Below, one piece after another: positions 1 through 15,723 of a stretch of DNA of 33,433 bases; the first letter of the stretch is position 1; each line of letters begins with the position of its first letter. The position numbers and the translations under genes were made by a program. Below the pieces are notes generated by a model. The model had not been told where the DNA came from, did not search any database, and saw only the letters and a program-made list of their open reading frames with translations. The stretch is from a virus, in IMG/VR virus record IMGVR_UViG_3300035122_000015, positions 1 to 33,433 of that record; one strand, given 5' to 3'.

Positions 1-150
1 CCAGCCATATTCGGACATAAACGTGTCATACAAGAATTGTAGCTTGTCCCTGGTGTCGACTCGCGGCTTCTCTTCATAGCTTGAGTTGTCGATATTGCTA
101 ACAATGTACTGCTTGATTAAGTGGTTGCGTCGTTTGCTTTCGCTGTTCAT
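1..150 (-). CDS. Partial phage protein of unknown function (C-terminus outside window)
   Basis: A leftward reading frame opens at an ATG (150-148) and is still open at base 1, giving 50 residues that begin MNSESKRRNHLIKQYIV and end at the window edge with FMSEYGW. The start overlaps the stop of the gene to its right by one base (TAATG), typical of translational coupling. The polar, slightly basic N-terminus and the WxYG-like end have no motif that I can assign. It belongs to the leftward early block. Function unknown; being a gene is well supported by the overlap and polarity. Confidence 0.65.
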   Translation of the reverse strand, partial: MNSESKRRNHLIKQYIVSNIDNSSYEEKPRVDTRDKLQFLYDTFMSEYGW

Positions 151-683
151 TAGTAAATCCTCCCATTTTCAGTGAATTCATATTCATTAGCGATTATTGA
201 CTCAATGGCAGACTCTTCACTGTAGTAATGCTCGATGTCCTTAACCACATCGGTAGCCCATTGAGTCAGGCAGTCGTCAATCAGGTCCTGAAAGCTGCGA
301 GAATCCGGTTTTTTCATAAATTTACGGATGGGGTCAACCAGCGATTCATCCAGGTAATAGCCAGTAAATGGGCAATTACCTGATAACAAGGTTTTCAGGT
401 CATAATTGTTAGTCAGGTACTTGAACAAGCGAATGCTTGACAATTCGGCTATTGTTACGTCGTCAATCTCAGCGTTTGCGAATGATGGCCGATGTGTTGA
501 ATATTCATAGCTCAGACGTGACAGATTGAATTCGTCACAAAATCCGTGTAGTGAACTGGTGTTTTCATCGTGCCAGGGATAGTGGTCATCGACGCCTATC
601 CACCAGTCAATGGCTTTTTGTTTGGCCTGTTCTGATAGCTCGTTGAACTGATAAACTGCTGTTTTCACTGTGTCGATTCTCAT
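150..683 (-). CDS. Conserved phage protein of unknown function (ELSEQAKQKAIDWW N-terminal motif)
   Basis: This 177-residue protein starts MRIDTVKTAVYQFNELSEQAKQ, and residues 12-28 carry the F-x-E-L-S-x-x-A-K-x-K-A-I/L-D-W pattern that I recognise from many phage and plasmid proteins of unknown function. The middle contains aromatic and acidic segments (YYLDESLVDPIRKFM). There is no signal peptide or membrane segment. The start is supported by GAGG seven bases upstream (GAGGTATAAAACC-ATG). A hairpin plus TATGTGG element precedes it at 702-732. It is coupled to the next leftward gene by a one-base overlap. Some database relatives carry an antitoxin-like label, which I would not rely on. Confidence 0.8.
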   Translation of the reverse strand: MRIDTVKTAVYQFNELSEQAKQKAIDWWIGVDDHYPWHDENTSSLHGFCDEFNLSRLSYEYSTHRPSFANAEIDDVTIAELSSIRLFKYLTNNYDLKTLLSGNCPFTGYYLDESLVDPIRKFMKKPDSRSFQDLIDDCLTQWATDVVKDIEHYYSEESAIESIIANEYEFTENGRIY

Positions 684-701
684 GGTTTTATACCTCTTTC
701 A

Positions 702-732
702 GTTGGTCCACATAGGCCCAGCTTGCTGGACC
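702..732 (-). repeat. Intergenic hairpin + TATGTGG element, copy A
   Basis: Read on the minus strand this is a near-palindrome (arms at 725-732 and 715-722, one G-T mismatch) followed immediately by TATGTGG and ACCAAC. It lies 19-50 bases upstream of the 150-683 start. Compared with copies B and C it lacks four bases (RTTA) in the middle of the conserved tail. The ATG inside TATGTGG opens a four-codon frame (MWTN) that stops just before the ribosome binding site of the gene. Confidence 0.6.
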
Positions 733-744
733 TAAATTGAGCAA

Positions 745-927
745 CTATTGCAAGACGCATTCGCCGACACGATTTCCATTTATATCCCGCAAAATGAAAA
801 CGTTGTCCTCTTCACCGCTATATCTTAGCCGTTTTGTGAGCACCTCAAGTATGCCGGCTAGTTCTCCGCGCGGGTCATCAGTAAAAGCGTCGTTTTCGGT
901 GCTGATTGTAATCGTTAACTTTTTCAT
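745..927 (-). CDS. Small phage protein of unknown function
   Basis: A 60-residue acidic protein starting MKKLTITISTENDAF and ending VGECVLQ. I chose the ATG at 927 because AGAAGGA lies about seven bases upstream; a longer in-frame reading exists from ATGs at 972 and 960, but these lie in the shared hairpin element. The sequence looks like a small mixed alpha/beta domain: an N-terminal beta strand, a helix around residues 18-34 (RGELAGILEVLTKRLR) and a C-terminal beta hairpin. It sits in the leftward early block between genes of unknown function. No function can be assigned. Confidence 0.72.
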   Translation of the reverse strand: MKKLTITISTENDAFTDDPRGELAGILEVLTKRLRYSGEEDNVFILRDINGNRVGECVLQ

Positions 928-944
928 TCGGTTTTTCCTTCTGT

Positions 945-983
945 GTTGGTTAACCCACATAAGCCCACTCATGGAATGGGCTT
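945..983 (-). repeat. Intergenic hairpin + TATGTGG element, copy B
   Basis: On the minus strand a perfect 7-bp stem (983-977 with 967-961, nine-base loop) is followed by TTATGTGGGTTAACCAAC. It lies directly upstream of the 745-927 gene and shares the 17-base pattern TATGTGGRTTAACCAAC with copy C. The ATG within the element is in frame with the downstream gene and would add MWVNQ and ten further residues. Confidence 0.7.
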
Positions 984-997
984 AAATTGGTTGATGT

Positions 998-1213
998 TTA
1001 AGTTTCAGTTAACGATATTTCTACTTTTTCGCCTTTGTACCAAGCTTTTGATTTGCCATGCCGCAAAAGCTTGCTGCATAAATCTACGGTGCTGGCTGAA
1101 TCACTTGGAAAGCCAGTAATAAAGCCACAATGAGCGCGTAGCCCTAGAACGCTGGTAGATTTGCTGTATAGGTTGCCGTTGATATACAGCCGATACGTTA
1201 CGATTGGTTCCAT
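998..1213 (-). CDS. Small phage protein of unknown function
   Basis: A 71-residue protein beginning MEPIVTYRLYINGNLY. The ATG at 1213 is preferred: AAGGGCCAG lies just upstream, and the longer in-frame start at 1273 falls inside the repeated hairpin element. The N-terminal half reads as beta strands (TYRLYINGNLYSKS), the middle as a helix with two cysteines (residues 29 and 46), and the C-terminus is KGEKVEISLTET. There is no membrane segment. It is followed by copy B of the intergenic element and then the next leftward gene. Function unknown. Confidence 0.68.
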   Translation of the reverse strand: MEPIVTYRLYINGNLYSKSTSVLGLRAHCGFITGFPSDSASTVDLCSKLLRHGKSKAWYKGEKVEISLTET

Positions 1214-1242
1214 TTTCTGGCCCTTGCCCCTATGGGCTGTTA

Positions 1243-1281
1243 GTTGGTTAATCCACATATGGCCCCGATGCATTTAGGGTC
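1243..1281 (-). repeat. Intergenic hairpin + TATGTGG element, copy C
   Basis: On the minus strand GACCC (1281-1277) can pair imperfectly with the GGGGCC stretch at 1266-1261. This is followed by ATATGTGGATTAACCAAC, almost identical to copy B. The internal ATG is in frame with the 998-1213 gene (MWINQ...). A purine-rich GGGG run sits a few bases before that ATG, inside the 3' arm of the hairpin. Confidence 0.65.
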
Positions 1282-1321
1282 ATTGTCTGTCTCTTCAGTA
1301 CCGGGAGACTATCCCCGATAG

Positions 1322-1340
1322 ACGGTCCAAAAAGGACCGT
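1322..1340. other. Perfect 7-bp inverted repeat with A5/T5 loop
   Basis: ACGGTCC at 1322-1328 and GGACCGT at 1334-1340 flank five A's. It lies eight bases past the stop of the leftward gene 1349-1594, where a terminator or RNA processing hairpin would be expected. No T-run follows the stem on the minus strand, so a classical intrinsic terminator is not supported. It may stabilise the 3' end or serve as an RNase III-type site. Confidence 0.5.
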
Positions 1341-1348
1341 TTCGACTA

Positions 1349-1594
1349 CTAGGCCATTAATTCATGCAGTTCTAGTTCCTCGATATCTCCCGAGTGAATG
1401 CTAACCGTGTAATCCCGTTCCTCGAGCCTGTTAACTTGCTCTATCACCTCACCGGCTAAAACGGCCCTTTCGTCCACTGTCGCGCCGTCTGGGCCTGATA
1501 TTGTCCTGATTGCCTCATCACTGGAGATAAATTGATAATCGACCTGTGAGCCGTCTATGTTGCTGTATAGGGTTATATGTGTATTGTTTGTCAT
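1349..1594 (-). CDS. Small phage protein of unknown function
   Basis: An 81-residue acidic protein starting MTNNTHITLYSNIDGSQ and ending LELHELMA. The ATG at 1594 has GAGG eight bases upstream (GAGGTATAACACA-ATG), the same leader form used by the 150-683 gene, and lies four bases past the stop of the gene to its right. The C-terminal part (VIEQVNRLEERDYTVSIHSG) looks like a helix followed by a strand. No catalytic motif, cysteine cluster or membrane segment is seen. Function unknown. Confidence 0.7.
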   Translation of the reverse strand: MTNNTHITLYSNIDGSQVDYQFISSDEAIRTISGPDGATVDERAVLAGEVIEQVNRLEERDYTVSIHSGDIEELELHELMA

Positions 1595-1598
1595 TGTG

Positions 1599-1781
1599 TT
1601 ATACCTCGCTTGTTGAATGAATAACTTGTTTATCATCAATTGCCACCAGTTCCACGTGAACCATATGCCGCTTGCTTTTGGGTGGATTGAATACCCTTAT
1701 TGCCTGTTGTTGCGCCGAATAGCTGGTCTCAGCCTTGATTGTTTCTTGCTTGCCGTTGTAGAAAGCCTCGTAAATGTTCAT
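1599..1781 (-). CDS. Conserved small phage protein (AFYNGK...SYSAQQQA type)
   Basis: A 60-residue protein starting MNIYEAFYNGKQETIKAET. The pattern Y-x-A-F-Y-x-G-K, then T-S-Y-x-A-Q-x-x-A, then V-x-V-x-L-V/A is one I recognise from a widespread small phage family with no assigned role. It reads as strand-strand-helix-strand. GAGGGG seven to eight bases before the ATG supports the start. An imperfect palindrome at 1805-1839 lies immediately upstream and is a candidate regulatory site. It is the second gene of the leftward operon. Confidence 0.75.
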   Translation of the reverse strand: MNIYEAFYNGKQETIKAETSYSAQQQAIRVFNPPKSKRHMVHVELVAIDDKQVIHSTSEV

Positions 1782-1804
1782 GTCATACCCCTCTATTAAT
1801 ATAA

Positions 1805-1839
1805 GTTTACAAGTGGTTAATAATTGGCCAGATGTAAAC
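1805..1839. promoter_or_regulatory. Imperfect palindrome; left member of a paired 26-bp site
   Basis: GTTTAC at 1805-1810 and GTAAAC at 1834-1839 bound an imperfect palindrome. Its half from 1830 down to 1805, read on the minus strand, matches 2674-2699 read on the plus strand at 23 of 26 positions, including a 16-base identical core TTAACCACTTGTAAAC. A further partial half-site (GGTTTACC) lies at 1855-1862. It could be an operator or a transcript-borne antitermination-type site. Confidence 0.6.
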
Positions 1840-1936
1840 TAAGAATGAATAATTTGGTTTACCTGTTAAATCGTTGCCTGGTGCGGCTTTCCCGTCCGTG
1901 GGGCCTGTCTGTCACACGCGACTGCTAAAAATATTC

Positions 1937-2182
1937 CTACGCCGCTACCAAGTTATCGAAAAAGCTTTGGTCTTTTTCTTCCACCTTGTCAGCCTCAAGG
2001 TCGCTAAGCCATTGATTTATATGGCGTGATGTTGTTACTGACCATTTCTTGCTGGTCTTGTAAACGCGGCCATTGATAAGGGCGGCCACTGGTGTGTCAT
2101 AGCTGAATAAGATTGATTTGCCAAAGTCACCGTCTTGCATGGTGATAACGGTCTGATTGTTGCCTAGTTTGCGTAGTTTCAT
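1937..2182 (-). CDS. Conserved phage/archaeal-type small protein (DUF8033-like)
   Basis: An 81-residue protein starting MKLRKLGNNQTVITMQDGD. The sequence signature is an N-terminal K-x-G-N-x-x-T strand, then SYDTPVAA, a GRVYKT turn and finally KKWSVTTSRHINQWL. I recognise this from a broadly distributed phage family (the -SVTTxRHIN-W- motif, resembling DUF8033) of unknown function. The start has CGGAGT about nine bases upstream. It is the first gene of the leftward operon, 26-60 bases downstream of a putative promoter at 2243-2270. The fold looks like a small beta-sheet; nucleic acid association is possible but unproven. Confidence 0.8.
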   Translation of the reverse strand: MKLRKLGNNQTVITMQDGDFGKSILFSYDTPVAALINGRVYKTSKKWSVTTSRHINQWLSDLEADKVEEKDQSFFDNLVAA

Positions 2183-2201
2183 CGTTGTGTACTCCGTCTG
2201 T

Positions 2202-2232
2202 CTGGTTAATGTGTCCCAGCTGTATGGCTGAG
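2202..2232 (-). repeat. Divergent relative of the intergenic hairpin element (copy D)
   Basis: On the minus strand CTCAGC (2232-2227) pairs with GCTGGG (2220-2215), with one G-U pair in RNA. It is followed by ACACATTAACCAGAC, which keeps the TTAACCA part of copies B and C but not TATGTGG. It lies between the putative promoter and the first leftward gene. Confidence 0.4.
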
Positions 2233-2242
2233 GTATATCGTC

Positions 2243-2270
2243 ATTATCGTCATTCTGTTGAGTAAATCAA
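2243..2270 (-). promoter_or_regulatory. Putative leftward sigma70 promoter
   Basis: On the minus strand TTGATT (2270-2265) is followed after 16 bp by GATAAT (2248-2243), 4/6 and 5/6 matches to the -35 and -10 consensus. It points at the leftward operon starting at 2182. An additional hairpin (arms 2316-2321 and 2331-2336) lies further upstream and could bind a regulator. Confidence 0.45.
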
Positions 2271-2315
2271 GTAATCGACGGCAAAAAAGCAGATAATTGC
2301 CCCGAGTTATTTTTA

Positions 2316-2336
2316 TAACCCGCATAAGCTGGGTTA
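2316..2336. other. 6-bp inverted repeat in the divergent control region
   Basis: TAACCC (2316-2321) and GGGTTA (2331-2336) flank a nine-base loop. Read on the minus strand the segment contains CTTATGCGGGTTA, which matches copy B of the intergenic element (CTTATGTGGGTTA) at 12 of 13 positions. It lies between the divergent genes starting at 2182 and 2409 and may be an operator. Confidence 0.4.
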
Positions 2337-2408
2337 ATGACAACCAACAATCAATGAGTTACACTCTTTGATACTGGGTTGACCCGGAAGTATAAGAGGG
2401 ATAAAGCG

Positions 2409-2672
2409 ATGGATAGAGCACGCACAGGCCAATTCTGGCTGTTATTGAACGAGGCTGGTATGAGCAAGCTGCAACTGGCCCAGGCTATAGGCAAGCGTTA
2501 CGATACCGTTATTGCATGGGGTGATACTCCGCCTCAATACGTGATTGCCTATCTACTGGAGTGCGTCAAGGTGCGAAGGCTACAGCGTGAATATGACCGA
2601 CTAATGTCTGACCCTGTGACACGTGAAGCCATAGAACGACGCGAGGCGCTATCGATGATGAACGATGACTGA
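2409..2672 (+). CDS. Small helix-turn-helix protein, likely early regulator
   Basis: An 87-residue protein starting MDRARTGQFWLLLNEAGMS. Residues 17-45 (AGMSKLQLAQAIGKRYDTVIAWG) have the spacing of an XRE/Cro-type helix-turn-helix: a short helix, then LAQAIG, then a recognition helix with T-V-I-x-W. A helical C-terminal part follows (REYDRLMSDPVTREAIERRE). The ATG at 2409 has AAGAGGG nine bases upstream; an upstream TTG at 2379 is in frame but lacks such a site. It is the first rightward gene opposite the leftward operon, the usual place for a Cro-like regulator, and is followed at once by the right-hand copy of the 26-bp site. Confidence 0.7.
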   Translation: MDRARTGQFWLLLNEAGMSKLQLAQAIGKRYDTVIAWGDTPPQYVIAYLLECVKVRRLQREYDRLMSDPVTREAIERREALSMMNDD

Positions 2673-3098
2673 CTGGCCACTATTTAACCACTTGTAAACC
2701 AACAGGCCCTCATGGCTTATTGAGAAAACCGACCCCCCCCACCCCCGTAAAAAAGACCGGTCCCTATAGTATACCCATATAGGAGTACCACTCCCCCACT
2801 TTCCCCCTTCCCAAGGTCTCTTCCTAACCATGATGAATGTAAGGTTATTCCTACCCCTTAAGCCTTTCCCCAAAAAATTTTTATGGCTGATTTCTTGCCT
2901 ATATGCTCTACAAAACGTAGAATAACGTTCGTTATGTGCGGCGTGGAAAGTGGACACCCTTTAGTGACCGGAGACCAGTGCAGAGCTGGGCTATGATGGT
3001 TGTGCTGAGAATGCGAGCTAATGAGGACAGGAAGCGAAAGCCAGAGAAATCTGTTGACTGTTTAGCTGGAGTAACGACCAGCCACATAACTTAATAAC
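2673..3098. other. Non-coding stretch: paired site, C-rich tract, hairpin
   Basis: No convincing gene is seen. The stretch starts with the right member of the paired 26-bp site (2674-2699). It then has a plus-strand C-rich region with C-runs at 2733-2740, 2742-2746, 2793-2797, 2803-2807 and 2810-2812, and a CCTATA/TATAGG hairpin at 2763-2783. A 33-codon frame (2993-3094, ATGATGGTTGTG...) has only a weak ribosome binding site. A minus-strand frame from a GTG at 2957 overlaps the regulator gene and has no convincing leader. Confidence 0.6.
2674..2699 (+). promoter_or_regulatory. Right member of the paired 26-bp site
   Basis: It matches the minus strand of 1830-1805 at 23 of 26 bases, with the last sixteen identical. 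It begins two bases after the stop of the helix-turn-helix gene. Both copies have the same orientation relative to transcription outward from the control region, as lambda nutL and nutR do. No boxA-like sequence is evident, so an operator is the alternative. Confidence 0.55.
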
Positions 3099-3171
3099 GT
3101 GCAGATAGCTCAAAGGTAGAGCGTCGAGATGTGGCCTCGAAGGCAAGGGTTCGATTCCCTACTGCACCCCA
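3099..3171 (+). tRNA. tRNA-His (anticodon GTG), slightly degenerate, CCA encoded
   Basis: A cloverleaf can be drawn: acceptor GTGCAGA (3099-3105) against CTGCAC (3162-3167); TA; D stem GCTC/GAGC with a seven-base loop; anticodon stem TCGAG/CTCGA with loop ATGTGGC and anticodon GTG at 3131-3133; T arm AGGG-TTCGATT-CCCT; discriminator C and encoded CCA (3169-3171). C73 fits tRNA-His. Oddities are a T stem of only four pairs, or an A-A mismatch at the T/acceptor junction, and C rather than the usual G at position -1. It may serve phage translation or mark a recombination site. Confidence 0.8.
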
Positions 3172-3192
3172 AATCAACGAGAGGAGAAGGTA

Positions 3193-3441
3193 ATGGATGT
3201 CGTATCAGCAGCAACTAAGCTCATGGTTGTTATTCGAGACAGCATGGAAACTCAATATGTTGCCTGTCGGTCTGAGACAGGAACGGGGATGCCGCATTAT
3301 CTTTGGATGCTTCGAGGCATCACAAATGGATATATTCAACACGAAAAAGCACATCGATGGTTAGGCTATGTACAAGGAGCGCTGGTATCACGCAATATCG
3401 TGTCGCTCAATGATATGAAGCAGCTTAACCATGAGTCATAA
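3193..3441 (+). CDS. Conserved small phage protein (HxWLGYVQG motif)
   Basis: An 82-residue protein starting MDVVSAATKLMVVIRDSM. The C-terminal half (PHYLWMLRGI...EKAHRWLGYVQGALVSR...LNDMKQLN) matches a pattern seen in many small proteins of early or ninR-like regions of tailed phages: H-x-L-W-M, then K-A/S-H-R-W-L-G-Y-x-Q-G, then a short helix. The function of that family is unknown to me. The start has GAGAGGAGAAGG just upstream. It overlaps the next gene by 11 bases. First gene after the tRNA. Confidence 0.82.
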   Translation: MDVVSAATKLMVVIRDSMETQYVACRSETGTGMPHYLWMLRGITNGYIQHEKAHRWLGYVQGALVSRNIVSLNDMKQLNHES

Positions 3442-3646
3442 ATGCCATTTCCCAACCTGTAACACTGAAGTGCCACCAAAGATGTGGGGCTGCAAGAAAC
3501 ACTGGTTTAAATTGCCAATACGGTTACGGCGCAAAATCTGGGCGACCTATGTACCTGGGCAAGAAATTTCTAAAACACCTTCCCCTGAATACCTAAAGGT
3601 CGCTGATGAAGTTCGGCAATGGTGTATGGAGAACCCAGATACATGA
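3431..3646 (+). CDS. Small Cys/His putative zinc-binding phage protein
   Basis: A 71-residue basic protein starting MSHKCHFPTCNTEVPPKMWGC. Cysteines at 5, 10 and 21 with H24 form a likely zinc site (C-x4-C-x10-C-x2-H), followed by KLPIRLRRKIWATYVPGQE and an S/P-x-x-Y-L-x-x-A helix. I recognise this layout (VPP..-C-x-x-H-W...P..LR..IW..Y.PGQE) from a widespread phage family of unknown role. It overlaps the upstream gene by 11 bases, implying coupled translation. Confidence 0.82.
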   Translation: MSHKCHFPTCNTEVPPKMWGCKKHWFKLPIRLRRKIWATYVPGQEISKTPSPEYLKVADEVRQWCMENPDT

Positions 3647-3681
3647 CTAACTATTCATTGTTATAAATGAGGTAACGAGCT

Positions 3682-3939
3682 ATGGATGTAGATGATTTAT
3701 TAGAGCAAGCAAAAACGCACCCGCGAAAAGCTTTGGTTACTGCTTACCATAGGGGTAAATCATCTCGTTCAGCGAGTGGTTGTGAATCTGTATTCATTTA
3801 TGGGCAACAGGCAAAGAAGATTAAATACCTGAAAAATAAAGGCGGCAGGCTATTGTCTGCTGTAGTCCAGGTTGAAATGCCTGATAAATCTATAGCCACA
3901 ATAGACGACTGGGGCCGAATCACTTGGAAAGATTCATAG
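3682..3939 (+). CDS. Small phage protein of unknown function
   Basis: An 85-residue basic protein starting MDVDDLLEQAKTHPRKALVT and ending DDWGRITWKDS. GAGGTAACGAGCT precedes the ATG. An N-terminal helix is followed by a lysine-rich centre (QQAKKIKYLKNKGG) and a predicted beta hairpin (AVVQVEMPDKSIATIDDWGRITW). No motif assigns a function. It is separated by two bases from the next gene. Confidence 0.7.
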   Translation: MDVDDLLEQAKTHPRKALVTAYHRGKSSRSASGCESVFIYGQQAKKIKYLKNKGGRLLSAVVQVEMPDKSIATIDDWGRITWKDS

Positions 3940-3941
3940 TT

Positions 3942-4214
3942 ATGGCTAAATTCAGAAAGAAACCTGTTGTTATTGATGCGGTTGTTAGCTGTAGACATAC
4001 AGTAACTAGAGGGCGCGAAAATGAAAAAGGAAGCTGGTGCGTAGATTGTGGCGTAAAGGTTTTTGACGTTGATGAGCGCGAGTGCAAAGACTGTAAGCAT
4101 TTCTTTACCAGGCCGTTTAATTATAGCGGGTGCAGGAAGCATCTTATGGCTGTATCGCCTGATATGCATGTGACGTATAAGATTGAAGACGGTTCATGTT
4201 GGAGTGCCAGATAA
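3942..4214 (+). CDS. Cys-rich phage protein, two putative zinc knuckles
   Basis: A 90-residue protein starting MAKFRKKPVVIDAVV, an N-terminus shared by many phage proteins. It then carries C17-x-H19, C33-x2-C36, C48-x2-C51, C64-x2-H67 and C86, enough ligands for two zinc sites. The ends WCVDCG and CKDCKHF resemble separate small phage zinc families, so this looks like a natural composite. The ATG at 3942 follows the previous stop by two bases; a TTG at 3924 is less likely. Function unknown; nucleic acid or protein binding is the usual guess. Confidence 0.75.
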   Translation: MAKFRKKPVVIDAVVSCRHTVTRGRENEKGSWCVDCGVKVFDVDERECKDCKHFFTRPFNYSGCRKHLMAVSPDMHVTYKIEDGSCWSAR

Positions 4215-4228
4215 CACAAAATTAATCG
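4212..4228 (+). repeat. Post-stop repeat, type 1 copy 1
   Basis: TAACACAAAATTAATCG begins at the stop codon of the 3942-4214 gene. The same position relative to the gene at 4259-4474 carries TAACACAAGATTAACCG (4472-4488), 15 of 17 identical. Confidence 0.55.
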
Positions 4229-4258
4229 TCGCATAGCGTCTAACTAGAGTGAATTGTT

Positions 4259-4474
4259 ATGACATACGTTTTATTCCCCGGTGAGGTAACCAGCCGGACT
4301 GATGGGCAAGAGCATTATATAACTGCGCCAGAACTGGCTAGGCTGTATGGCGTGGAATATGCGAAGTGCAAAGTGGTGTATCGGTATGAAGAAAGCTCAA
4401 TCCGAGGATACCGTAAACAGCCGAATGATGTTGAACTGTATCCACGATATGACGGCAACTACAAATTGCCATAA
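4259..4474 (+). CDS. Conserved small phage protein (FPGE..R.DG.EHYI motif)
   Basis: A 71-residue protein starting MTYVLFPGEVTSRTDGQEHYI. The order FLPG-x-x-x-x-R-x-D-G-x-E-H-Y-I then LARLYGV then a C and a run of tyrosines is familiar from small proteins of many tailed phages, with no known role. AGAGTGA lies about eight bases before the ATG. The LARLYGV segment could be a short helix of a winged-helix type, but this is weak. Confidence 0.78.
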   Translation: MTYVLFPGEVTSRTDGQEHYITAPELARLYGVEYAKCKVVYRYEESSIRGYRKQPNDVELYPRYDGNYKLP

Positions 4475-4488
4475 CACAAGATTAACCG
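4472..4488 (+). repeat. Post-stop repeat, type 1 copy 2
   Basis: TAACACAAGATTAACCG starts at the stop codon of the 4259-4474 gene and is near-identical to 4212-4228. Confidence 0.55.
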
Positions 4489-4499
4489 GAGCGCGAAAA

Positions 4500-4715
4500 A
4501 TGTACGACAAACCAGATAGAACACACGGAATGATGAAGATGCTTGACGGCAAAAGAAGGCTCCGCAGTAGCACGTCCGATGTTGAGCGTGTTGTTATGCG
4601 TAAGTGTGCGGCATGTGGAGCAGAGAAACCTGTAAAGGAAATGAAAACCTGTATGCAAAACCAGATGCACAGATACGTTTGTGATTCAAAATGCATGGTT
4701 GAATTCTACACATAA
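4500..4715 (+). CDS. Small zinc-finger-like phage protein
   Basis: A 71-residue basic protein starting MYDKPDRTHGMMKMLDGKRR. C37-x2-C40 (KCAACGAE) and two further cysteines near the end (YVCDSKC) make a four-cysteine zinc site, as in small phage zinc proteins. The ATG at 4500 is chosen because CGGAG lies upstream; the same frame is open further left but overlaps the previous gene entirely. A 23-base direct repeat starts at its stop codon. Function unknown. Confidence 0.72.
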   Translation: MYDKPDRTHGMMKMLDGKRRLRSSTSDVERVVMRKCAACGAEKPVKEMKTCMQNQMHRYVCDSKCMVEFYT

Positions 4716-4735
4716 CAAACAGCTAACCTGCCAAG
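4713..4735 (+). repeat. 23-bp direct repeat, copy 1 (starts at a stop codon)
   Basis: The sequence from TAACAAACAGC through CCTGCCAAG is identical to 5197-5219. Both copies begin exactly at the stop codon of a small gene. Confidence 0.75.
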
Positions 4736-4941
4736 CGGTCAGGTTTGTACTAAGTAAGTTAATGGGAGTGGGTTGGTTGCGACTATGAACAGGGTTTGAG
4801 TCCCGACAAAATATAGCGGCGGCCTAAGAAGATAGCCTAAGCGTAAATCGGCTTGACAAGGGTAAAAACACGGCATGTTTGAGCGCAGCATTGGGCGTGA
4901 TAAGGCCAGCCTGCTCCCACCCTTTAACGATAGAGGTAGCT

Positions 4942-5199
4942 ATGACACCAGAAGAACGAAAACAACAAGCTTTAGAAATGCACGAACGCACTTTACAGCA
5001 CTTAGTTGATAAAGGCCGATTGATGCTTACAGTAAATGTGACCACTAAAGAGCAGGCCCAAGAGATACTTGAGTGGATGTATGCCCCAGAAAAACCAATG
5101 ACAGCAGAGCTTATTGAACTCGCATGGGATAAAGCGGCCATAACAAAGCAAGAATTCGATGCACTTGAGCAACTTAAGGCCGCGATATTGGGCGGCTAA
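4942..5199 (+). CDS. Small helical phage protein of unknown function
   Basis: An 85-residue protein starting MTPEERKQQALEMHERTLQ. The start at 4942 has AGAGGT seven bases upstream; upstream in-frame codons lie in the intergenic stretch. It is strongly helical: residues 3-27, then a strand (RLMLTVNV), then three helices (KEQAQEILEWMY, TAELIELAWDKAA, KQEFDALEQLKAAIL). No catalytic residues stand out. The 226 bases upstream hold the first 23-bp repeat and no gene that I can support. Confidence 0.75.
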   Translation: MTPEERKQQALEMHERTLQHLVDKGRLMLTVNVTTKEQAQEILEWMYAPEKPMTAELIELAWDKAAITKQEFDALEQLKAAILGG

Positions 5200-5219
5200 C
5201 AAACAGCTAACCTGCCAAG
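5197..5219 (+). repeat. 23-bp direct repeat, copy 2
   Basis: Identical to 4713-4735 and likewise begins at the stop codon of its gene. The 484-base spacing brackets the whole 4942-5199 gene, consistent with gain or loss of that gene by homologous recombination. Confidence 0.75.
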
Positions 5220-5269
5220 TTGAGTGCAAAAAGAGGATACGGTGTGATGAATACCATAAGAGGTGATGT

Positions 5270-5542
5270 ATGAGTGAGTCAATAATGGAAATTTTAAAAA
5301 AAGCGAATCCTGAATATTTATATGCTTACGCAGAAGAAGTACCGGTTGCGCTATTTGCTGAAGAAATGCGAAGGAAGCTTGAGCTAAAACGTAAACAAGG
5401 ACGAGACGGATGGTATCGACGTGAATGCACGATTAATTATTTGTATTCATTGATGATGAATCACGCTGAAAAAGGCGACTATGTGGATGTGGCTAATTTT
5501 GCAATGATGATTCGCGCCAAGCAAGCAATGGGCCACAAATAG
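5270..5542 (+). CDS. Conserved small phage protein (EEMRRKLExxRxxGRDGW motif)
   Basis: A 90-residue protein starting MSESIMEILKKANPEYLYAY. Residues 30-47 (AEEMRRKLELKRKQGRDGW) and the C-terminal HAEKGDYVDVANFAMMIRAK are the two conserved blocks of a very common phage family: F-A-x-x-M-x-x-K-L-x-x-x-R-x-K-G-R-x-G-W and K-G-D-x-x-D-V-A-N-F-x-M-M. The family role is not known to me. The leader AGAGGTGATGT precedes the ATG. Confidence 0.85.
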   Translation: MSESIMEILKKANPEYLYAYAEEVPVALFAEEMRRKLELKRKQGRDGWYRRECTINYLYSLMMNHAEKGDYVDVANFAMMIRAKQAMGHK

Positions 5543-5556
5543 ATAAAGGGTGATGT

Positions 5557-5581
5557 ATGAATAAAGACATAGAGCGAGTGA
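5557..5581 (+). repeat. 25-bp repeat encoding MNKDIERV, copy 1
   Basis: The first 25 bases of the 5557 gene, from ATGAATAAAGAC to GCGAGTGA, recur at 5743-5767 as the start of the next gene. The proteins then diverge completely. Confidence 0.75.
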
Positions 5582-5724
5582 ATGAAGTGCCCGACTCGGA
5601 CGACTTGTTATGTTGCCCAGAATGCGGTGGAGAGTGCGAGCAAGACAACAACAGCTTCCAGTGTCATAAATGCAAAAAGCTGTGGCCGAAAGACTTCGGC
5701 TATGAATCAGAAAAGCCCTGTTAG
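5557..5724 (+). CDS. 55-residue zinc-ribbon protein
   Basis: A short gene: ATG at 5557, TAG at 5722-5724, 55 residues starting MNKDIERVNEVPDSDDLLCC. The pattern CPECGGE (C20-x2-C23) followed by FQCHKCKK (C36-x2-C39) is a standard four-cysteine zinc ribbon. AAAGGGTGATGT precedes the start. Its first eight codons are duplicated almost exactly at the start of the next gene (5743). Likely role: protein or nucleic acid binding; unassigned. Confidence 0.75.
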   Translation: MNKDIERVNEVPDSDDLLCCPECGGECEQDNNSFQCHKCKKLWPKDFGYESEKPC

Positions 5725-5742
5725 CCTACAAGGAACAAGCAC

Positions 5743-5767
5743 ATGAATAAAGACATAGAGCGAGTGA
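5743..5767 (+). repeat. 25-bp repeat encoding MNKDIERV, copy 2
   Basis: Identical to 5557-5581. The two copies are 186 bases apart, start to start, and include the initiation codon of each gene. Confidence 0.75.
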
Positions 5768-6072
5768 GAGAGCTGGATAAGCGAAAGAAAACAGCAGGAA
5801 GGCTCGACTCGAAGGTATGGAGCGATTGCACTCTTGAGATAAACATCCTTGCCACACAACTCGCAGACCAGCTAGAAGCAACTGCGGTAAAGATTGGATT
5901 CTTAGAGTCAACGATAACTAAATTGCAGGAAGAACTTTGCAGATGTGCCGAAAGCAAAATCCAACAAGCATCCAAACTAGAAGCAAAAGAACGGGAGTGT
6001 GAGGTGCTAAAAGATGCGCTAAAAGATGCACACTCTTTGCTTAAAGATTTTAGCCTACGAAGTTTTTTATAA
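5743..6072 (+). CDS. Coiled-coil phage protein of unknown function
   Basis: A 109-residue protein starting MNKDIERVRELDKRKKTAG. Residues 35-95 run as a long amphipathic helix with leucine and isoleucine at heptad-like spacing (ILATQLADQLEATAVKIGFLESTITKLQEEL...LEAKERECEVLKDALKDAHSLL), so a coiled coil is likely. There are no membrane segments. AAGGAACAAGCAC lies before the start. Small phage proteins of this type are common beside zinc-ribbon genes; function unknown. Confidence 0.75.
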   Translation: MNKDIERVRELDKRKKTAGRLDSKVWSDCTLEINILATQLADQLEATAVKIGFLESTITKLQEELCRCAESKIQQASKLEAKERECEVLKDALKDAHSLLKDFSLRSFL

Positions 6073-11778: not shown

Positions 11779-12004
11779 CACATTAAAAACGTGGGGTCTC
11801 GCCATACTTGGTGTTGGCGCAGCTGTCCTATTTGCGCTGCTTCGAAACGAACAGGCAAAACGAGCCAAAGAGAAAGTTGACCTGATGAAAGAAAATAATC
11901 GGGTTCAACAAAAAGCCAGTAAGGCTACAATCGATGGCCTCCAGAGGGAGGAGAAAGCAAAAAATGAAGATGTTGACCCTGACGATATTGACCGTTTTTA
12001 TTAG
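11759..12004 (+). CDS. Rz-type inner-membrane spanin (i-spanin)
   Basis: An 81-residue protein beginning MIIPGLSTLKTWGLAILGVG at the ATG 11759. It has one N-terminal membrane helix (residues 10-27), then a charged helical periplasmic domain (NEQAKRAKEKVDLMKENNRVQQKASKA) and an acidic end. This is the standard Rz architecture. The Rz1 gene starts inside it in another frame (11964), the classic arrangement. It acts with Rz1 to fuse inner and outer membranes. The frame is open upstream to 11672, but that would run inside the holin gene. Confidence 0.8.
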   Translation: MIIPGLSTLKTWGLAILGVGAAVLFALLRNEQAKRAKEKVDLMKENNRVQQKASKATIDGLQREEKAKNEDVDPDDIDRFY

Positions 12005-12321: not shown

Positions 12322-12522
12322 ATGGGTAAATTCGACCAAGCTAATCACGGCGAAGAAATTCCAGTCGTCGCATTTGCTGACCTACCTGCTGCAGCTACAG
12401 CTAACATAGGTCAAATTTTGTGGTGTCCCACTGGTATCGCCGGGTCTGCAGGTTTGATTGTTTCCAACGGTACCAATTGGGTGCATGTTGCAGACGGAAC
12501 AACCACAGCAGCTGAAGCATAA
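12322..12522 (+). CDS. Small beta-rich protein, likely virion-associated
   Basis: A 66-residue protein starting MGKFDQANHGEEIPVVAFAD. The segment FADLPAAATANIGQILWCPTG...LIVSNGTNWVHVADG resembles short modules that occur in phage tail fibre or decoration proteins (DLPAA...G.I..C..G.....L..SNGT.W). GGAGGATTTTACTC gives the ribosome binding site. It lies alone after the lysis cassette; the upstream 130 bases hold a long-range inverted repeat (CCCGCG near 12197 with CGCGGG near 12251) and no gene. Confidence 0.65.
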   Translation: MGKFDQANHGEEIPVVAFADLPAAATANIGQILWCPTGIAGSAGLIVSNGTNWVHVADGTTTAAEA

Positions 12523-13432: not shown

Positions 13433-13461
13433 TTGATATAGCCATAAGTAAATTCTATACT
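13433..13461 (+). promoter_or_regulatory. Late operon sigma70 promoter
   Basis: TTGATA (13433-13438, 5/6), exactly 17 bp, TATACT (13456-13461, 5/6). It lies between the tandem terminators and the 13496 gene and would drive the large terminase, portal and all later genes. Host RNA polymerase recognition is implied. Confidence 0.8.
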
Positions 13462-13780: not shown

Positions 13781-15252
13781 AAAAGCTGGATATAAACTAC
13801 GTAGCTGAGCATACGCCAGCACAGTTCCATAATAATGACTCTTTTGTGAGAGGAATTATGGGGCCAGTTGGCTCCGGTAAATCTGTCTCCTGCTGTATAG
13901 AGCTTGTTTTTAGAGCCATGCAGCAGGAGCCTGGGCCTGATGGAGTCCGTTATTTCCGGGCTGCAGCTATACGCAATAGCTATCCGGAACTTAAGACGAC
14001 GACCATAAAAACATGGCAAGATTGGCTTCCTGATTCTATTTGCCCTATTAACTGGGGAACTCCTATTACAGCAAGAATGCGGGTACCGGGACCGCCAACT
14101 CCAGATTTTCCAAATGGCACCACTGTTGACTTTGAACTCATATTTCTCGCCCTTGACCGACCCAAAGATGTAAAAAAATTACTATCCATGGAATTGACCA
14201 TGGCATGGATGAATGAGGCGCGAGAACTTCCTTATGAAATACTTGAGGGTGTGACCTCTCGTGTCGGTCGTTATCCTGGTAAATTAAAAGCCCATAATCT
14301 TACTTACGCTGGTGTCATATTGGACACGAACCCGCCAGATGACGACCATTGGTGGTATGACATAGCTGAAGTCAAAAAGCCGCAAGGTTATATGTTTTGG
14401 CGTCAGCCACCAGCTCTTCTTAAAGGAGAGGACGAAAAAGGTGAAGTCATTTATTTCCCTAATCCGAAAGCTGAAAACGTTACCAATCAACCACTTGGAT
14501 ACAAATATTGGCTTAACATGGTTGCTGGTAAAACCATGGAATGGATTAAAGTTTATGTTCTTGGGCAATATGGCACGGTATATGATGGTAAGCCTATTTA
14601 TCCTGAGTACAACGATGGCTTGCACTGCGCCAAAGAAGACCTCGAAATTATCCGTGGACTACCTCTCATGCTGGGATTCGATTTTGGTCGTACCCCAGCC
14701 TGCGCCATTTTCCAGCTATCGACAACTGGTCAGCTTCGAGTTGTTGACGAAGTGGTGTCGGAAGACATGGGTGTTCGCAACTTTATCAGAAACCTGCTCA
14801 AACCAAAGCTGCACAACGAATATTCAGGAATGAGCTTAAGAATTTGGGGTGACCCAGCTGGCACACAAGGAAGCCAGTCTACTGAAGATACGTGTTATTC
14901 AATAATGGCTGAAGAGGGATTGCCCGGAGAACCGGCAAATACTCAGGACCCTGTAGCCAGACGTGAGGCAGTAGCCAAAATGTTGACGAGTTTTGATGCT
15001 GATGGCTCACCGGGATTCATTATGTCACCTCGCTGCAAACAGCTCAGAAAGGGATTTAATGGTGCTTTTATGTATGAACGGGTCCAGATTGTTGGTGAAA
15101 TTCGATATAAGGATAAACCGAAAAAGAATATTTTTTCTCATATCCATGAGGCGTTACAGTACGGGTGCTTGATGGTTGAAGATGGGTTGAAAGTCGAAGT
15201 AGTTAGAGCAAGGCCGGTGGCCAGACGAAAATCAAGTGGGTGGGCAGCATGA
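13777..15252 (+). CDS. terL: Terminase large subunit (ATPase/nuclease)
   Basis: A 491-residue packaging motor protein. The GTG start overlaps the previous stop by four bases. Walker A is GPVGSGKS (29-36); Walker B with catalytic Glu is MAWMNEA (142-148). The RNase H-like nuclease domain shows D302 (GFDFGRTPA) and D359 (IWGDPAGT), with a C-terminal H455-I-H457-E458 region. It translocates DNA into the prohead through the portal and makes the packaging cuts with the small subunit (8826-9371). Length agrees with the usual 450-550. It is followed by a four-base overlap with a 50-residue gene. Confidence 0.95.
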   Translation: MKKLDINYVAEHTPAQFHNNDSFVRGIMGPVGSGKSVSCCIELVFRAMQQEPGPDGVRYFRAAAIRNSYPELKTTTIKTWQDWLPDSICPINWGTPITARMRVPGPPTPDFPNGTTVDFELIFLALDRPKDVKKLLSMELTMAWMNEARELPYEILEGVTSRVGRYPGKLKAHNLTYAGVILDTNPPDDDHWWYDIAEVKKPQGYMFWRQPPALLKGEDEKGEVIYFPNPKAENVTNQPLGYKYWLNMVAGKTMEWIKVYVLGQYGTVYDGKPIYPEYNDGLHCAKEDLEIIRGLPLMLGFDFGRTPACAIFQLSTTGQLRVVDEVVSEDMGVRNFIRNLLKPKLHNEYSGMSLRIWGDPAGTQGSQSTEDTCYSIMAEEGLPGEPANTQDPVARREAVAKMLTSFDADGSPGFIMSPRCKQLRKGFNGAFMYERVQIVGEIRYKDKPKKNIFSHIHEALQYGCLMVEDGLKVEVVRARPVARRKSSGWAA

Positions 15253-15480: not shown

Positions 15481-15723
15481 ATGGAGCTAGTTCACGCGAA
15501 AATGGCTCGCGGTTCGGATATGTTCGAAAATGAGGTTTATCAGACAACCTTTGTTTTTGGCAGTCCAATAAAGGATGTAGAAGGCAAAAGCATTGGTAAG
15601 GCAAAGCCGGTGCATATGACCTTTATGAATGGCATGCCGCCAGAAGCTTTCATTATTGGGCTTCGGGCTTTGGCTGACCATGTTGAAAAAGAATTTAATC
15701 TCTCGGACGAGGGAGAAACTTAA
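15481..15723 (+). CDS. Small protein before the portal gene
   Basis: An 80-residue protein starting MELVHAKMARGSDMFENEV. Strands (YQTTFVFGSPIKDV, AKPVHMTFMNGMP) and a C-terminal helix (AFIIGLRALADHVEKEF) are visible. GAGAGAGGGCAAT precedes the ATG. Its place between the large terminase and the portal is often taken by small head-assembly proteins; no function is readable. Confidence 0.7.
   Translation: MELVHAKMARGSDMFENEVYQTTFVFGSPIKDVEGKSIGKAKPVHMTFMNGMPPEAFIIGLRALADHVEKEFNLSDEGET

Follow-up and report, generated by a model that had tools for sequence, protein, structure and literature searches.

Paired outward-facing sites around a divergent region of a podovirus-like phage as putative DNA control sites

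What function could be served by two near-identical sequences that face outward on either side of a divergent gene region? The question is raised by IMG/VR record IMGVR_UViG_3300035122_000015, whose positions 1-33,433 form the 33,433-nucleotide stretch analyzed here (the window). This fragment of a podovirus-like phage has plus-strand genes for the small and large terminase subunits, a portal-like head-tail adaptor, a capsid protein and an amidase. Leftward genes span 1-2182 and rightward genes begin at about 2379. The original prediction took the sequences for outward-facing regulatory sites, either nut-like antitermination sites or operators for a dimeric protein. Our preferred reading, at a probability of about 0.4, is that the pair represents putative DNA control sites (operator- or stoperator-like) which coordinate the two divergent units and are possibly read by a helix-turn-helix protein.

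The site pair and its gene context

The features of the region are as follows.

1599-1781, minus strand: second leftward gene, 60 aa, PHROG 19202 (E 7e-8)
1805-1831, minus strand: left copy of the 27-nt site, CTGGCCAATTATTAACCACTTGTAAAC
1805-1840: imperfect palindrome around the left copy, GTTTACA..TGG / CCA..TGTAAAC
1937-2182, minus strand: first leftward gene, 81 aa, PHROG 5643, syntenic in two relatives
2183-2408: divergent control region, between the first leftward gene and the helix-turn-helix gene
2409-2672, plus strand: gene of a small helix-turn-helix-like protein, 87 aa from ATG 2409 or 97 aa from TTG 2379
2673-2699, plus strand: right copy of the 27-nt site, CTGGCCACTATTTAACCACTTGTAAAC

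The two copies are identical at 24 of 27 bases and their shared sequence can be written CTGGCCAnTnnTTAACCACTTGTAAAC, while 60 dinucleotide shuffles of window positions 1-6000 gave at most 21/27 for inverted and 22/27 for direct 27-mer pairs. The 16-base core TTAACCACTTGTAAAC is exact at 1805-1820 (minus) and 2684-2699 (plus), so the near-identical pair with an identical core was described correctly in the original prediction, as were the coordinates and the outward orientation of both copies. That prediction had also named many unrelated copies elsewhere in the genome as evidence against itself, and no further copy with up to two mismatches is found in the whole 33,433-base record. The runner-up full-site match, with the left palindrome excluded, reaches 16 of 24 fixed positions. 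The core has a third match at 14487 with 3 mismatches (chance expectation 0.36 hits; 0 of 100 shuffles gave 3). The site pair is real, and its shared 27 nt exceed what is expected by chance.

The right copy directly follows the stop codon of the helix-turn-helix-like gene (2409-2672). The left copy starts 106 nt past the stop of the 81-aa gene, and 24 nt separate its end from the ATG of the next leftward gene (1599-1781); this position in a gene leader had previously been missed. As noted earlier, the left copy is part of a larger palindrome, found here at 1805-1840, which as RNA would form a hairpin of -10.1 kcal/mol. The right copy is not palindromic and has no counterpart of this hairpin, but it retains TGTAAAC despite the loss of the pairing partner. 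The conserved feature of the pair is the primary sequence and not an RNA structure; since the right copy does not fold like the left, structure does not account for the long shared sequence.

The core of the left copy contains TTAACCA, which occurs four times on the leftward strand within 2.3 kb, always in the sense direction. The three copies outside the left site, which the original prediction did not mention, are listed below.

2203-2209, minus strand: leader of the 81-aa gene (1937-2182)
1245-1251, minus strand: leader of ORF 998-1213/1273
947-953, minus strand: leader of ORF 745-930

The motif is thus present in 4 of 6 leftward leaders, 20-45 nt before the start codon and without overlapping the ribosome-binding site. 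The three outside copies were equalled in 64 of 2000 shuffles, a frequency that is corrected for the choice of 7-mer and does not count the leader position; the restriction to leaders adds further weight. As TTAACCA recurs in three other leftward leaders, the left copy is partly a gene-leader element.

The 87-97-aa protein is the product of the first rightward gene. It has a weak match to the transcriptional regulators of PHROG 4779 (E 0.005), and its structure model shows five helices in a helix-turn-helix-like order (pLDDT 76). Foldseek returned lambda CII and Xre-type proteins at non-significant scores (best E 0.66), and the searches of Pfam and NCBIfam gave no convincing family. No relatives of the protein were found, the lone tblastn match (in L032) being false. 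The predicted helix-turn-helix assignment is therefore weak. The 81-aa protein encoded on the other side has relatives in 47 phage records and 31 viral contigs. Sigma-70-like matches in 2183-2408 do not exceed the shuffle expectation. A tRNA-His (GTG) gene is located at 3098-3170 (plus), at the start of the rightward unit, and a structured RNA at 2925-3098 was rejected (z -0.08).

Relatives and wider searches

The original prediction called for a search of relatives for both sites. Two relatives contain the region, G001 (locus L083) and G005 (locus L084), with terminases 76% and 72% identical to that of the window and with the location and orientation of the 81-aa gene unchanged; a wider terminase search gave no further record at 69% identity or above. 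The 27-nt site is missing from both of these syntenic relatives, and the helix-turn-helix gene is missing together with it. Instead, both relatives have a Fur-box-like 19-mer palindrome, AATGAGAATSATTMTCATT, which precedes the second leftward gene by about 30 nt and recurs on the right arm about 1 kb from the left box.

L083: left box 4087-4105; right-arm box 5099-5117
L084: left box 13439-13457; right-arm boxes 12446-12464 and 12469-12487

The right-arm boxes match the left box at 16 of 19 positions, which was equalled by 1 of 60 shuffles for L083 and 2 of 60 for L084. Elsewhere in the sequence examined of the two loci the 19-mer has one match only, with 3 mismatches, and the window has no Fur-box-like site. 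Judged from these counts, the Fur-box-like pair appears moderately significant; the evidence from the two loci is not independent, as they are homologous. Relative to an AAAAAAT-rich block matched by eye, both relatives carry their right boxes about 150 nt farther out on the arm than the window carries its right copy.

These data provide moderate evidence that a repeated control site in this arrangement may be a feature of the phage group, with its sequence exchanged between members. A constant arrangement with a changing site sequence, if that is what these phages have, would let them re-wire which signal gates their early genes. A more specific idea is quite unlikely: the pair, with one site per divergent early transcript, would hold its position, and its sequence and presumed reader would be swapped, with a Fur-type host box in the relatives and a phage helix-turn-helix site in the window. 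If true, such a position-kept pair with exchanged sequence would constitute a plug-in sensor module for early gene expression.

Two further features are seen in the right arm of all three phages. A CCCTATAGT-like sequence, which resembles a T7-type promoter core in reverse, is found at about 2761-2770 in the window, 5160-5175 in L083 and 12400-12420 in L084; no phage RNA polymerase was recognised among the few proteins tested. G/C homopolymer tracts of the C8AC5 or G7AG5 type occur in the noncoding right arm at 2729-2746 in the window, near 4985 in L083 and near 12580 in L084; their strand in the window is opposite to that in the relatives.

Beyond the group, the exact 16-mer was found in 29 stretches of viral contigs, about the chance number by a rough estimate. 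None of the 29 shares proteins with the window or shows a similar inverted pair, and those with several copies are arrays spaced at about 130 nt. A degenerate 21-mer gave one match in viral contigs, which was unrelated, GC-rich and without a pair, and a degenerate 23-mer gave no match in genome contigs. At L047 3717-5950, sequence of up to 40 nt (TTAGTTACCTCTAAAGTGTCCCTATAGTGTGA) is directly repeated at intervals of up to about 1 kb; the repeats are possibly phage promoters.

Putative control sites and competing explanations

The sites themselves, their orientation and position, the lack of further full copies and the pair of another sequence in the two relatives are directly observed; DNA binding, the identity of the binder and an effect on transcription are what we infer. 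Two sequence-specific sites would flank the divergent early control region, one of them upstream of the second leftward gene, in its leader, and the other just past the end of the first rightward gene. A DNA-binding regulator would bind both, and a plausible binder is the phage's own helix-turn-helix protein encoded between them. Once bound, the regulator could limit the reach of transcription from the divergent region along either arm, as an operator or as a stoperator-type roadblock oriented with transcription. Control sites are supported by the shared 27 nt above chance, by the conservation of primary sequence, by the repeated box of the relatives in a similar arrangement, by the joint absence of gene and site from L083 and L084, and by the five-helix model and weak PHROG 4779 match of the protein. 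Against them stand the missing third copy at 2183-2408, the non-palindromic right copy and the displaced right boxes in L083 and L084, together with the weak helix-turn-helix assignment, the moderate significance of the Fur-box-like pair and a comparison that covers two homologous relatives. Should the sites be operators, a regulator would be matched with its target in a phage group that is represented here by metagenome data alone.

Control sites beside a helix-turn-helix gene in a divergent region are familiar as the Cro/CI operators of temperate phages, and an autoregulating Cro-type protein is expected to bind at the divergent promoters. The window sites likewise adjoin a helix-turn-helix-like gene in a divergent region. 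However, they are not at the presumed promoters, the right copy lacks a palindrome, and neither a repressor nor an integrase was recognised in the record. The earlier alternative of an operator for a dimeric protein survives, but 2183-2408, where the divergent promoters are presumed to lie, contains no third site. A second precedent is provided by the stoperators of Cluster A mycobacteriophages, which are bound by the L5 repressor and are asymmetric, located in short intergenic spaces and oriented with transcription (PMC9283540). The window sites are also asymmetric, intergenic and oriented with transcription, as operators or stoperators would be. L5 has more than twenty 13-mer sites, including early-promoter operators, and a two-domain repressor of 183 aa (PMC9283540), whereas the window has two full sites, none of them at 2183-2408, and a candidate binder of 87-97 aa.

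The main rival, possible but doubtful, is an intercistronic RNA leader element, i.e., a hairpin plus TTAACCA upstream of the ribosome-binding site, that serves processing, stability or translation of early genes; the right copy would then be the leader of a lost or mini gene. This explanation draws on the four TTAACCA leaders and their shuffle frequency, on long hairpins in the leaders of ORFs 150-683 (z -2.9) and 745-930 (z -3.7), and on the hammerhead ribozymes in other leaders described below. Additionally, a leader sequence of its own, ACTACCAC, is repeated in the more distant relative L085, with 6 copies within 3 kb where 0.05 are expected, and 5 of the 6 precede a ribosome-binding site. 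The proposed element resembles the start-associated and extended start-associated sequences of Cluster K mycobacteriophages, which are repeated, oriented elements upstream of start codons; about half of the start-associated sequences have inverted repeats, and their distance from the start codon is 3-7 nt, with the Shine-Dalgarno core included in the element (PMC3203893). The window motif is likewise a repeated and oriented leader motif, with an inverted repeat at the left copy, but it lies 20-45 nt from the start, and what follows the right copy is a 3-codon frame at 2712 instead of a proper gene. The hairpin has not been retained at the right copy either, and the similarity of the two copies extends well beyond the leader motif, to 14 of the 17 other positions. 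Because numerous sites and promoter sites were not found and the start distance differs, we do not claim membership in either the L5-stoperator or the start-associated family.

A recent local duplication of the left leader beside the helix-turn-helix gene would make the right copy a functionless scar of gene insertion. The absence of this gene from both syntenic relatives, the start of the right copy directly at its stop and the lack of other copies in the record agree with such an event. It is nevertheless unlikely, as the similarity breaks off abruptly at the edges of the site, without extending into the flanks, and the relatives too have a repeated site in a similar arrangement. Nut-like sites in two nascent early transcripts are very unlikely. 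Lambda nutL and nutR occur as one copy per divergent early transcript, behind early genes, and both window copies are similarly in the sense strand of presumed divergent early transcripts, after the first gene of each. In contrast to lambda, no boxA (CGCTCTTA / TGCTCTTTA) upstream of the hairpin is better than in shuffles, the best matches being equalled by 26 to 189 of 200; the earlier remark that no boxA is evident was therefore accurate. The boxB-like hairpin is found at the left copy only, no N-like gene or N homologue was recognised, and TTAACCA recurs in other leaders. With boxA at chance level and the left hairpin missing from the right copy, position is all that favours the suggested new antitermination system, and a nut site is argued against. 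Paired outward regulatory sites as such were a reasonable proposal, with some support from the palindrome of the relatives. Least likely is a small mobile or invertible segment with the sites as its terminal inverted repeats: 27-bp inverted repeats do bound an 895-bp segment with two divergent genes, but no transposase or invertase was recognised inside or nearby, the flanks (ATATAA and CAACAG) show no target duplication, and the 81-aa gene is placed and oriented identically in relatives that lack the repeats.

Hammerhead ribozymes and leader hairpins of the leftward operons

In this phage group, hammerhead ribozymes are interspersed between the genes of the leftward operons. In the window, a type II hammerhead at 1281-1347 (minus), between two leftward genes, scores above the Rfam gathering score (RF02276, 62.6 bits, E 1.8e-10). 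A core-structure search identified type II hammerhead-like elements in both relatives.

L083, minus strand (n=4): 1413-1459, 2785-2839, 3370-3419, 3736-3788
L084, plus strand (n=3): 13894-13944, 14777-14829, 15595-15640

Rfam recovered one copy from each of these arrays, both below the gathering score, and a stricter core-structure search of 1.48 Mb of loci gave matches only in this phage group and in L086. Clustered hammerheads flanking genes have been reported in prophages and were suggested to cut long transcripts into gene-length mRNAs (PMC3088659); the arrays found here are therefore of a known kind. With its leaders and hammerheads, the phage group offers a good system for the cutting and pacing of early polycistronic mRNA.

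Leader hairpins that look alike by eye are located at 684-750 (minus) in the window, upstream of 187 (minus) in L083 and upstream of 16473 (plus) in L084. They have mismatches at similar places (AGTTR.TCA ... GGA.YAACT) and are possibly a shared processing element. In L085, a type III hammerhead candidate is found at 11790-11839 (plus; 27.6 bits, below gathering), and its 3' strand continues into the repeated leader of that phage.
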